From contig JAJYPK010000013.1 in assembly GCA_021795465.1 (NCBI GenBank), positions 1 to 39,637 of the forward strand: DNA of 39,637 bases, read 5' to 3'. The position numbers were made by a program, and so were the translations under genes. The DNA is from Bacillota bacterium. GTDB taxonomy: Bacteria; Bacillota; Sulfobacillia; Sulfobacillales; Sulfobacillaceae. The stretch's first letter is position 1. Each line of letters starts with the position of its first letter. Of the stretch, positions 15,398 to 34,739 are shown piece after piece. The notes beneath the pieces were generated by a model that worked only from the letters and a program-made list of their open reading frames with translations, was not told where the DNA came from and made no database searches.

Positions 15398-15473
<76 letters not shown>

Positions 15474-15477
15474 ATAT

Positions 15478-15554
<77 letters not shown>

Positions 15555-15555
15555 A

Positions 15556-15641
15556 TGGTGGATGGGGTTGGATTCGAACCAACGTAGGCGCTAGCCAGCG
15601 GTTTTACAGACCGCCCCCTTTAGCCACTCGGGCACCCATCC
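15556..15641 (-). tRNA. tRNA-Tyr (GUA anticodon)
   Basis: An 86-nt type II tRNA: acceptor GGATGGG/CCCATCC, anticodon stem GCGGT/ACCGC with loop CTGTAAA (anticodon GTA), a long variable arm, T-arm with GTTGG-TTCGAAT-CCAAC, discriminator A and encoded CCA. It is separated from tRNA-fMet by one base. Confidence 0.97.
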
Positions 15642-15658
15642 AGTACTATGCAATTATT

Positions 15659-15685
15659 TGGAGCTCGAGACTAGAACTCGCAATT
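15659..15685 (-). pseudogene. Relic of a tRNA 3' end
   Basis: On the minus strand this reads AATTGCGAGTTCTAGTCTCG then AGCTCCA. It resembles the 3' half of tRNA-Thr(UGU) in this window: the T-arm TTGCGGGTTCGAGTCCC matches at most positions, and the end AGCTCCA is identical, with a few bases missing from the acceptor strand. There is no matching 5' half. It lies 17 nt from tRNA-Tyr, in the same orientation as the other tRNAs. Confidence 0.45.
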
Positions 15686-15975
15686 TCGTATATAGACGCC
15701 ATCGACGAATTGCTTGTTTTCACTCTCACTCGATAACGCTTAAGCAGTATACCACGCCGCTAACTGTCGATCAATACTTAATAGGCAACTTGAACACTTT
15801 GTCCCGCCCATTTTATCCCAGTCGCATCTTCTGGATATCCAGTTTCTCGACTCAACGAAAATTCTTCGGTCTCGTTAACAATGTAAATCCTTGCCCCGGA
15901 ATCGTGGGATGGGACAAAAGATGGCTATCCGCTAGTATCTCGCGAGGCGAGATTCGTCTATCGGACGCATGTTAT
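15686..15975. other. Intergenic stretch, nothing recognised
   Basis: Beyond the tRNA-like relic no gene, hairpin terminator or repeat is evident in the 290 nt before the esterase gene. The sequence is a little richer in A+T than its surroundings. Confidence 0.5.
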
Positions 15976-16869
15976 TCATCGTAGGTGTTGCGTTATGAAG
16001 AACGCGGCCCGGTCCAAGGCTTGATCGGCTTCATCGAGGACGCCGGCGAAGATTTGGAAAACGTGTGGGACCTCTGCGGTAACGTCGAGGATGACGTCCA
16101 CGCCTGCCGCCCGTGCTCGTTCTGCCATCTGCGTGGAATCGTCTAATAATATCTCATGGGTTCCAACTTGGAGCAGCAATGGCGGGAATCCGGTGAGGTC
16201 CCCAAGCATGGCGGGGCTCAAGAGTTCCTGATTCGGGTCCTGTCCAGCAAGGTACATCGCATCCGTGTAGCCTACGCTCTCACGGGTTAGGATGGGATCA
16301 ACTCCGGCTTTGCTATCCATACTCGCTCCCGACCGCGTCTTATCTAAGCCTGCCGAAAATGCCACCACCACTGCCGGCATCGGTAACCCAGCCCTCCGTA
16401 TCATGAGGCACGTGGACACAGCGATACCACCACCGGCAGAGTCCCCCGCGAACGCGATAGACTTCGCCGCGACACCGCCATCCAGAAGCGCACGATAAGC
16501 CGCGAGCGCATCATCCAGAGCCGCTGGGAACGGGTGTTCCGGAGCAAGACGATAGTCGAGTGAGGCAGCCCGGATACTGGTTCTGCTGACAAGGTTCGCG
16601 GTGAGGGACATGCTCGTTTGGGGAGAACCGAATACGTACGAACCCCCGTGAAAGTAGAGAATCGTTCCCGGATTAGCAGCCCCTTCGGGTTCAACGAGCA
16701 CGCCGGGTCGATCGCCCAGAGTCATCGGTGCGGTCCGCACACCATCAGGCACTCGCATCGTGGCCATCATGGCAGCAAAGCTTTCTCGTATCTCCTCGAC
16801 GGTTTGTGGATTGGAGGGTCGGGAGCGCCGCAGCATGGCATCCACTGCCTCACGCTGTTCTCTTGCCAT
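15976..16869 (-). CDS. Alpha/beta-hydrolase esterase of the HSL family
   Basis: A carboxylic ester hydrolase of the hormone-sensitive lipase family (family IV), 297 residues, cytoplasmic. The oxyanion-hole motif is FHGGSYVFGS (about residue 73); the nucleophile is Ser in GDSAGGG (about residue 144); the acid is probably the Asp in HEILLDD; and the catalytic His is in EVPHVFQ (about residue 272). The substrate cannot be read from sequence. The ATG at 16869 has a GGGGAGA ribosome site. It is alone between two tRNA blocks, has higher G+C and more G/C-ending codons than the neighbouring genes, and may have been acquired. Confidence 0.93.
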   Translation of the reverse strand: MAREQREAVDAMLRRSRPSNPQTVEEIRESFAAMMATMRVPDGVRTAPMTLGDRPGVLVEPEGAANPGTILYFHGGSYVFGSPQTSMSLTANLVSRTSIRAASLDYRLAPEHPFPAALDDALAAYRALLDGGVAAKSIAFAGDSAGGGIAVSTCLMIRRAGLPMPAVVVAFSAGLDKTRSGASMDSKAGVDPILTRESVGYTDAMYLAGQDPNQELLSPAMLGDLTGFPPLLLQVGTHEILLDDSTQMAERARAAGVDVILDVTAEVPHVFQIFAGVLDEADQALDRAAFFITQHLR

Positions 16870-17152
16870 ATCGTCTGTCTCCCCTTCTACATCGCTCTAT
16901 TATGTTGGAACAAGACATCGACATCAAAACACCATCCCACACCAAACCTGGGCTGTAGCGGAATTGGCGGGATGTTTTGACAACCCAAAAAAGCCTTATA
17001 ACGTTTGACAGCAATAGGCTTTTCTAGATTTGCGTCCTCTATTACGAAGCCGTTTACGTTATTATTGGCCAATCTGACAACACTCGGAATGTTTTGCAAA
17101 AAAAATTGCTTTCCGTCAATCCCGGACAGCGTTGCGGTGTATATATCTTTAG
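16870..17152. other. Intergenic stretch between esterase and tRNA-Thr
   Basis: No recognised gene. A minus-strand open frame (about 16887-17099) reads partly protein-like but has no ribosome site and no family match I can name; it may be debris from whatever carried the esterase. Confidence 0.4.
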
Positions 17153-17228
17153 TGGAGCTGGCGATGGGACTCGAACCCGCAACCTACTGATTACAAATCA
17201 GTTGCTCTACCAATTGAGCTACGCCAGC
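17153..17228 (-). tRNA. tRNA-Thr (UGU anticodon)
   Basis: A 76-nt cloverleaf: acceptor GCTGGCG/CGCCAGC, D-stem GCTC/GAGC, anticodon stem ACTGA/TCAGT with loop TTTGTAA (anticodon TGT), T-arm GCGGG-TTCGAGT-CCCAT, discriminator T and encoded CCA. In related genomes tRNA-Thr and tRNA-Tyr lie close together in front of the secE region; here they are 1.5 kb apart. Confidence 0.97.
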
Positions 17229-32560: not shown

Positions 32561-33271
32561 TTAGGGAGCTCCTTCGCCAACCAATCCCAATCGCTCTGCC
32601 GCTTGGATTACCCGACTAACCCCCACGACCGCGATTCCCGGATAAATTTCCCTTCCGCTACCCGGTACCATACCGCGCCGAAATCCTAAATTGTGAGCTT
32701 CTTTAAGCCGGTCACCAATTCGCGTGACGCGCCTCAATTCTCCGGTGAGACCGACTTCACCTGCGACCACCCATTCGGGGGCTACCGCAACGCTACCAAG
32801 GCTGGATAAGGCCGCACATAAAATGCCCAAATCCAATCCGGGATCGTCTAAGGATACGCCGCCAGTCAATTTAAAATACGCGTCCATTTCCGATACGCGG
32901 ATACCTAGATGACGTTCGATTACCGCGAGCACTATTGCGACTCGATGCGGATCGAGCCCCGATACCACGCGACGCGGGTTGCCATAGGATCGCACCAGCA
33001 ACGCTTGTACTTCCACCAAAAGCGGCCGGGTACCTTCGATCGCGGCTACCACCGCGGACCCGGAAGCGTCAACAGGGCGTTCCGCCAAAAGACTTCGGGA
33101 TGGATCTTCTACGGCCACCAGGCCTTCGCCTTCCATTGCGAAAAGACCCAGTTCGTTGGTCGCTCCAAACCGATTCTTAATGCCTCGCAAGGTCCGAAAC
33201 GGGTGCTGACGATCCCCTTCAAACATTAAAACCACATCCACCAAGTGTTCGACCACCCGTGGACCTGCTAG
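32561..33271 (-). pseudogene. radA: radA, C-terminal portion
   Basis: The rest of RadA: LAGPRVVEHLVDVVLMFEGD completes the RecA-like core, GIKNRFGATNELG is the RadA-specific KNRFG motif, and the last 150 residues (from RPLLVEVQALLV) form the Lon-protease-like domain. In the same frame a TAG (33275-33277) separates it from the inserted open frame, so it is not translated from the N-terminal part. A GTG at 33254-33256 (MVEHLVD) could start a 231-residue fragment but has only a weak ribosome site. Without the insert removed, this piece has no ATP-binding P-loop. Confidence 0.85.
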
Positions 33272-34073
33272 CGCCTAGTGGACAATGTCTTCATCCTGAC
33301 CATGGACGGAAGGCCATTCATACCGCTGTCCATCCCGTGTCTGCACGATCTTCACCCAAGGATACCGTGTGGGTTCTTCGAGAACCACTTTTTGTGGGTG
33401 TCCCTGATGCCTCCAAAGTCGGGCCAGGGCTTCCAGGTCCTCCAAGGTCCACCACGCCGGTCGGCGACGGTTTTTAGCCAGCATCGTGAGGATATTCAGG
33501 GCCTCCTCAACGGCCTCCCATGTCATGCTCCCGGTGATTCCCGAGAAGTGCTCCTGGTGCGCTAAAACGCCCCACTGTGCACGACCCAAGCGAGCGGCAC
33601 AGGCCATGGAGACCGTGAACTCCCTCGCATTCCACGCCAAAGCCTCTGGCCCTCGGTCAATCGTTACTATTTGTTTAAAAATTTCCCGCCACGGGACGGC
33701 GTCAGACACCACGGCACACCACGTCTCTGCGTTGGCTCCAAGACCGGAAACCAATATTACCGGATTCGGTGCAGGAAACAGACGTGCGACTAAGCCTTTT
33801 TCCTCCAATTTCCGAGCCAGGTTCCACCATGGCTCGAACTCTCCCCATGGTGCATAGTCGAGTGGTCGATAGTGCTGCCAGCGTCGAAAGGCCTTGTTAC
33901 CTTGTGCCCATACTGCCAGGAGCTGGGCGTGTTGTCTCTGAGGATCCAAAGCTCTACCGCCTCGTTTCCTGCACATTCGGTTGCCGTGAAGGGCTCTCGC
34001 GCTTCCCGCATTCAACCATTCATGCATATAGCCCAGTTCCTTAGCTCGAGTTACCTCAAGCTACGGGCCGCAA
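33272..34073 (-). mobile_element. 802-nt insertion inside radA
   Basis: The two flanks join exactly as RadA codons: upstream ends GHVTKEGS(L), downstream begins (L)AGPRVVEH. Removing 802 nt restores KEGSLAGPR in frame; the exact edges can slide by a few bases, because several cuts give the same peptide. Features: no clear target-site duplication, no terminal inverted repeat, no recognisable intron core, an open frame filling almost all of it, and stops in all frames at the left edge. 802 is not a multiple of three, so an in-frame intein is excluded in the present state. One possible cut leaves U at the 5' exon and G at the insert end, as for group I introns. Confidence 0.75.
33275..34027 (-). 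CDS. Unknown 250-aa protein within the radA insertion
   Basis: The open frame runs from an ATG at 34027 (AAGGA ten bases upstream) to a TAG only a few bases from the right edge of the insertion. The product is tryptophan- and arginine-rich, without signal peptide or membrane segment: it opens MHEWLNAGSARALHGNRMCR, has FPAPNPVILVSGLGANAETW and KQIVTIDRGPEALAWN in the middle, and ends YEWPSVHGQDEDIVH. The VILVSGLGANAETW stretch sits where a P-loop could be but lacks GK[ST]. I do not recognise homing endonuclease, Hint, integrase or reverse transcriptase motifs. It is in the same frame as the radA C-terminal part; reading through the TAG would fuse the two. Confidence 0.55.
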   Translation of the reverse strand: MHEWLNAGSARALHGNRMCRKRGGRALDPQRQHAQLLAVWAQGNKAFRRWQHYRPLDYAPWGEFEPWWNLARKLEEKGLVARLFPAPNPVILVSGLGANAETWCAVVSDAVPWREIFKQIVTIDRGPEALAWNAREFTVSMACAARLGRAQWGVLAHQEHFSGITGSMTWEAVEEALNILTMLAKNRRRPAWWTLEDLEALARLWRHQGHPQKVVLEEPTRYPWVKIVQTRDGQRYEWPSVHGQDEDIVH

Positions 34074-34739
34074 TGACCCTTCTTTCGTAACGTGTCCGAC
34101 AAGAAAGATCGGACACGCCTGCTCGGGTTGTCTCTTAGCCACCCGCATTAATCGTGCCGCTACATCCCGAACTTGACCCACACTACCTGGCGCCGATTCT
34201 AATTCGGGATTGAACACCGTCTGTAGTGAGTCTACAACCGCCAAACGCCAGACACGTGAGGTCAGGGCGGCAATAATCTGGTGAATATCGCCTTCGGCTA
34301 ACACGAATAAGTTATCCCCAACGGTCTGGAGTCGAGACGCCCGCAACCGAGTCTGAGCCTGGGACTCTTCGGCGGTGACATAGAGCACCGGACCCTCGCG
34401 ACTCGCGAACGCAGCGATTTGTAATAGAAGGGTCGACTTCCCAATGCCGGGATCGCCACCGAGCAAGACGAAACTCCCTGGCACCACTCCCCCACCCAGC
34501 ACACGGTCCACCTCAGGTAAGCCCGATTCGAAGCGGGAAATGGTCTCGGCCTCAATTCGATTGAGCGGTACCGGTAGACTCGGTTTTCCCGACGACGGTG
34601 AGGGACTCGGGCTCTTTGAGACCACTTCTTCCTGCATGGTGCTGTAGCCGCCACAGCCAGGGCAACGTCCAAGCCAACGTACGCTGGCGGTGGCACAAAC
34701 TTGGCACACATAGCGCTTTTGATCGCGGATATCCTTCAC
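34056..34739 (-). pseudogene. radA: radA, N-terminal portion (truncated by insertion)
   Basis: RadA (Sms) is a RecA-like helicase that processes branched DNA during recombination. This part holds the four-cysteine zinc finger (VCQVC and RCPGC), Walker A GGDPGIGKST at about residues 94-103, Walker B RLAVVDSLQT, and stops soon after GHVTKEGSL with the non-family tail RPVA. Only 227 of about 458 residues are present. The GTG at 34737-34739 is close to an AAGGGA sequence, eight bases after the clpC stop. As it stands the product lacks KNRFG and the Lon-like domain and is unlikely to be fully active. Confidence 0.88.

Follow-up and report, generated by a model that had tools for sequence, protein, structure and literature searches.

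Group I introns splice by a reaction that guanosine initiates, and they are uncommon in the protein genes of bacteria. The bacterial protein genes named as hosts are those for flagellin in thermophilic Bacillus, recA and nrdE in Bacillus, and nrdE in cyanobacteria (PMC3984707); the word radA does not occur in the text of that paper. The insert described here, which very probably is a group I intron that splices from the radA message, shares with those introns a group I core, the 5′ U·G pair, a conserved protein gene as host and an early in-frame stop. It differs from them in that its host is radA, that it is present in every radA found across a whole family, that the Rfam model RF00028 does not see it, and that its protein gene lies in the P8 loop and shares codons with the core. 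As a group I intron it is of an ordinary sort, in a host gene not reported before; the protein and the fixation are the unusual part. A full-text literature search, with most subscription journals and preprints outside its coverage, returned no paper recognisable by title and abstract as a report of group I introns in radA or cheY or in Sulfobacillus.

The window analysed is a stretch of 39,637 nt from a member of the Sulfobacillaceae, in which the DNA-repair gene radA lies on the minus strand, flanked by clpC and disA. Based on the ORF list and the match to the RadA family, the 5′ exon (34076–34739, minus strand) encodes residues 1–221 plus the first base of codon 222 and ends with AAA GAA GGG T. 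The 3′ exon (32561–33273, minus strand), which joins the first in frame, begins CG CTA GCA GGT and runs to the stop codon. Together the exons make 458 residues, and the gap between them is exactly 802 nt, as a first-pass annotation of this DNA had reported. Two cuts that lie 2 bases apart (GGG TCA/CTA or GGG T/CG CTA) give the identical RadA protein. The annotation had also named a cut with U before the insert and G at its end; this cut follows group I rules and is retained, and it moves the insert from the positions first given (33272–34073) to 33274–34075 on the minus strand. The remark that one open frame almost fills the insert, whose length is not a multiple of three, holds as well. Either half of radA alone scores below the RadA family cut-off, and the 3.58-Mb genome yielded no other complete copy of the gene.

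We joined the flanks of 31 introns of the class in silico, and the motif GHV[TN]K[ED]GS[LI]AGP[RK] was restored in all 31, with cuts after GGGU and before CGCU (CGAU in genome G057). These 31 introns are 678–817 nt long, and two introns of another class measure 866 and 911 nt. Modulo 3, the 33 lengths leave 0 in 7 introns, 1 in 14 and 2 in 12; removal must accordingly take place at the level of RNA or DNA, not of protein. In all 33 introns, translation continued past the 5′ exon would run into a stop codon after 6, 11 or 21 codons, most often (27/33) after 6. An intein or other in-frame protein insert, for which the agreement of the two halves modulo 3 in some genomes could speak, was rejected because of these early stops and because all frame classes are represented. 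The same agreement of frame would also suit a plain dead radA, the fallback of the first-pass annotation, but both exons are conserved in all intron carriers, and the ribozyme core and the encoded protein are likewise conserved or under purifying selection. Intein and dead gene together are left with hardly any chance of being correct.

The intron (33274–34075, minus strand, as are all its parts) begins with the C that follows GGGU and finishes with the G that precedes CGCU, with ends and core that are conserved in 28–33 introns and that covary. In P1 (34065–34079), the exon sequence GGGU (34079–34076) pairs with the guide GCCC (34068–34065), with U·G at the cut, in 28/28 sequences. In P10, the guide GCG (34071–34069) pairs with the exon CGC (33273–33271), and guide and exon covary in family f103, where the guide is UCG and the matching 3′ exon CGA. 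Overall, GGGUCGC pairs with GCGGCCC. Both the U that ends the 5′ exon in the P1 U·G pair and the G that ends the intron occur in 28/28 sequences. The P2 hairpin (34042–34063) has a GNRA loop and includes the in-frame stop that terminates reading from the 5′ exon, and 7 of its 9 pairs change on both sides. The core segment P3-P4-P5-P6-R element-P3′ (33918–34037), in which P3 is formed by 34036–34031 with 33928–33923, scores 122.2 bits with R1, a covariance model that we built of the radA intron core from P3 to P3′. The 5′ strand of P7, GACA (33933–33936), lies within the R element GGATCCTCAGAGACAA and pairs in 28/28 sequences. At the intron 3′ end (33274–33298), the P8 3′ strand CAGG (33298–33295), J8/7 AUGAAGAC, the P7 3′ strand UGUC (33284–33281) and the last G (33274) are conserved as nucleotides, independent of reading frame. 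No P9 was seen in the intron structure.

Across the 28 sequences, P1, P10, P2–P8 and the P7 pseudoknot all form, and 96.9% of cells pair, compared with 28–43% after sliding the partners; the structure was drawn by hand on one of the 28, so the percentage is biased towards that sequence. Changes on both sides, which do not depend on the sequence chosen for drawing, were found in 26 of 54 pairs, and in one distant member (G057) P7 swaps GACA/UGUC for GGCC/GGCC. The nucleotide alignment has two conserved blocks, one at each intron end, regardless of frame, and the energy fold alone gives P1–P6 for the 5′ part of the window's own intron (z −4.5). The first-pass annotation had seen no intron core; one is present, comprising P3–P8 and a P7 pseudoknot with covariation, and the "unusual intron" that it had offered among other readings is now supported and made precise as a probable group I intron at the very cut it had named. 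Its second reading, a DNA element excised in some cells like skin in sigK, would explain why removing the insert restores radA exactly. There is no recombinase in the insert, however, both ends are kept as base-paired RNA helices that covary, and no assembled genome of the family has an empty site, which leaves excision from DNA very improbable. The scar of a site-specific element, its third, finds no support either, with a ribozyme core, exons and encoded protein that are all conserved or under purifying selection.

Covariance-model searches for group I and group II introns, the check proposed in the first pass, gave a divided result: RF00028 reported no match for the radA intron, and the core model R1 matches it. 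Group II introns and other Rfam families were rejected; Rfam gave no group II match and Pfam revealed no reverse transcriptase. The silence of RF00028 can be gauged from a control, a group I intron in an apparent tRNA gene on Elusimicrobia MAG contig JAGHAK010000090.1 (locus L092, 4139–4322), which was located by the same core motifs. RF00028 aligns to it end to end with 40.7 bits (E 3.9e-9 in 401 bases), and the gathering score is 50. Thus, a clear group I intron also falls under the threshold, and absence from Rfam says little. R1, from whose building the Elusimicrobia intron was left out, retrieves it at 66.9 bits. The R and S elements of the radA introns match those of this tRNA intron and are near-identical to them, the likeness includes the J6/7 region, and the same core model finds both; the Elusimicrobia intron differs in being short, in lacking a protein gene and in its host gene. 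As judged from these shared elements, the core of the radA intron is that of accepted group I introns. ARAGORN overlooked the tRNA gene around the L092 intron.

A RadA family search over 61 genomes found radA split likewise (family positions 226/227) both in the family of the window and elsewhere in parts of the order, and the intron-encoded protein was located at the same radA site in these relatives. R1 detects one copy per genome, in radA, in 27 of the 34 genomes of the family (a further match in G004, with E 0.65, was left out of this count). The first-pass annotation had looked to related radA genes for the empty site, and none was found: the 34 family genomes yielded no uninterrupted radA, and the seven that lack the intron have no radA match either, two of them being 63 and 71% complete. 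Five genomes of the family (G009, G015, G017, G030 and G031) and one of the same order (G041) are without radA and show only weak, partial matches to disA; radA and its neighbour may have been lost jointly in these six. Beyond the family, a profile of the protein matched 33 of 154 genomes of the class, in single copy each, in families f1, f2, f3 and f19. Two f2 genomes have an uninterrupted radA. Among 398 genomes sampled from the phylum, f103, a family of another class, also has the intron, at the same codon, in two of three genomes, where both radA exons can be seen. The carriers therefore comprise the window's family, three other families of its class and one family of another class.

Among the named carriers are Sulfobacillus thermotolerans Kr1, whose genome is complete, and S. 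harzensis DSM 109850, an isolate. Given the presence of the insert in this complete genome and this isolate, and at the same codon in 27/34 family genomes and in other families, it is not the assembly error that had initially been considered. Within the family, distances between RadA proteins and between intron proteins agree (Spearman 0.81, reached in 0 of 999 permutations), which indicates vertical descent there. Across families, losses or lateral homing may account for the history of the intron; the RadA tree shows long branches. The family comprises at least ten genera, and every radA detected in it carries the intron.

The intron-encoded protein (33275–33949, minus strand) comprises 224 codons in the window, from TTG at 33949 to TAG at 33277–33275, and is supported by start conservation, dN/dS and structure models. 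In general it has about 215 residues, with its start inside the ribozyme core and its end close to the 3′ splice site; its frame lies mostly in the P8 loop and overlaps R, P7, P3′ and P8 at both ends. The start codon, TTG or GTG, stands immediately 5′ of the R element (TTG GAT CCT CAG AGA) in 30 of 32 genomes, and AAGGAGG or GAGG is often present a little upstream. The first codons, DPQRQ(Y/H)AQLL, therefore double as ribozyme core. In f103 the start is ATG, preceded in one genome by AAGGAGGAG. An upstream ATG at 34027, which would open a 250-residue frame in the window, was rejected as the start since it is not conserved, unlike TTG 33949. In many genomes the frame continues through P8 and P7 up to the 3′ splice site. 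As it overlaps R, P7 and the splice site, translation and folding may compete.

Where computable, dN/dS is 0.09–0.41 in the protein frame and at least 0.94 in either of the alternative frames, and by this measure the protein is under purifying selection. A profile run over genomes of the class, phages, plasmids and viral contigs never found it outside the radA intron. Pfam, PDB sequences, phages, plasmids and viral contigs provided no usable match; a Pfam rve match of a single member (E 0.04–0.05) was taken as noise.

Two confident AlphaFold2 models of the protein were obtained (pLDDT 89 and 91). In comparison with solved structures, the protein is similar to PD-(D/E)XK proteins over its first two thirds and to winged helices in its C-terminal part. 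The f103 model matched Hjc with Z 7.6 (87 residues, rmsd 2.9), the nuclease part of McrBC with 7.2, VRR_NUC and Tk-TIP26 with 7.0 each, HindIII with 6.1, FokI with 6.0 and I-Ssp6803I with 5.4; the best Z for the other model was 6.6. Most top matches belong to the PD-(D/E)XK superfamily, but all Z scores are below 8 and the lower rows include a few unrelated folds (response regulators), making the likeness a strong hint rather than proof that the protein combines a PD-(D/E)XK-like domain with a winged helix. Foldseek searches with the window's protein against PDB and BFVD gave no match with E < 0.001. For the catalytic D and (D/E)xK, no conserved acidic column was found in the strands among 32 sequences. 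The invariant residues past the core-coded start are instead basic (K19, R22, R23 and R180). The f103 protein keeps one D and, as judged by eye, has R/Q/K-L-W at the position expected for E-x-K.

The selection on the protein, the loss of catalytic residues and the invariant basic residues point to a maturase that descends from a homing endonuclease and has a PD-(D/E)XK-like fold without a conserved active site; we give this role about an even chance. Its retention throughout the family without nuclease residues, where no empty site was seen for it to invade, also suggests, less firmly than splicing itself is supported, that it serves splicing. Endonuclease-related maturases are known among intron proteins, an example being I-AniI (PMC3943268). 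Like the LAGLIDADG maturases and the bifunctional I-AniI, the radA intron protein is an endonuclease-related intron protein under selection and may aid the folding of its own intron; it differs from them in fold, and in that its maturase role is still putative. We found no description in the literature of a maturase with a PD-(D/E)XK-like fold.

Where a group I intron encodes a protein, it is typically a homing endonuclease (PMC3943268), and the radA protein may be one that is still active, with an unusual active site and with repeated homing behind its family-wide presence. Such activity would fit the purifying selection, the occupation of the same radA site in distant classes and the PD-(D/E)XK-like fold, whose matches include the homing endonuclease I-Ssp6803I. 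The latter likewise comes from a bacterial group I intron, and its fold match covers 91 residues (Z 5.4, rmsd 4.1), but no sequence match to it was found, and the radA intron protein lacks conserved catalytic residues and has the extra winged-helix-like part. We regard continuing endonuclease activity as unlikely, considering the strands without a conserved acidic residue or (D/E)xK, the replacement of E-x-K in f103, the joint descent of the protein with RadA, and a family that offers no uninterrupted radA to invade. A slightly smaller chance goes to the protein being neither maturase nor endonuclease, and acting as a DNA-binding regulator or in another host function. The winged-helix-like C-terminal part could bind DNA in this way, and the intron endonuclease I-TevI also represses transcription (PMC3943268), but a protein that is never found outside the radA intron appears tied to the intron.

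If the insert splices in the cell, as we infer from its conserved ends and core, the transcribed RNA would fold and use guanosine to cut after GGGU, and ligation of GGGU to CGCU would yield an uninterrupted radA message. The early in-frame stop past the 5′ splice site would hold ribosomes off the ribozyme, an argument already made for other bacterial introns, in which ribosomes are thereby kept from unfolding it (PMC3984707). The gene for the protein of about 215 residues sits in the P8 loop, and its first codons belong to the ribozyme core. In the fullest form of this explanation, RadA is made only by way of a ribozyme fixed in its gene and with the aid of a new kind of maturase, a former PD-(D/E)XK homing endonuclease that lost its active site and was kept for splicing; we hold it tentatively, with a chance somewhat short of even. 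The passage from selfish endonuclease to splicing factor could be tested directly on such a protein, which is under purifying selection but has no conserved nuclease residues.

With an intron fixed in it in at least ten genera, the recombination gene radA looks broken. As the standard RNA library is blind to this intron, similar ones may hide in other "split" genes. The core model R1 already reveals a second such intron, in cheY, in the other class: two f103 genomes contain group I introns of 174 nt (L116 1463–1636, G214) and 162 nt (L117 1476–1637, G252) with the same core as the radA intron and without an ORF, and joining the flanks restores DDAAFMRMMIKDI. An in-frame TAA (GEA*DGVQ) occurs in the cheY 3′ exon of G214 (L116), outside the intron, and reflects an assembly error or a broken gene. 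R1 also scored 39.9 bits with an AT-rich, group I intron-like core at L094 3566–3719 (minus strand) on contig PBYI01000011.1, which is labelled Nocardioides and looks organellar rather than actinobacterial. Elsewhere in the window, we noted four tRNA genes on the minus strand at 15401–17228, three of which are clustered at 15401–15641.
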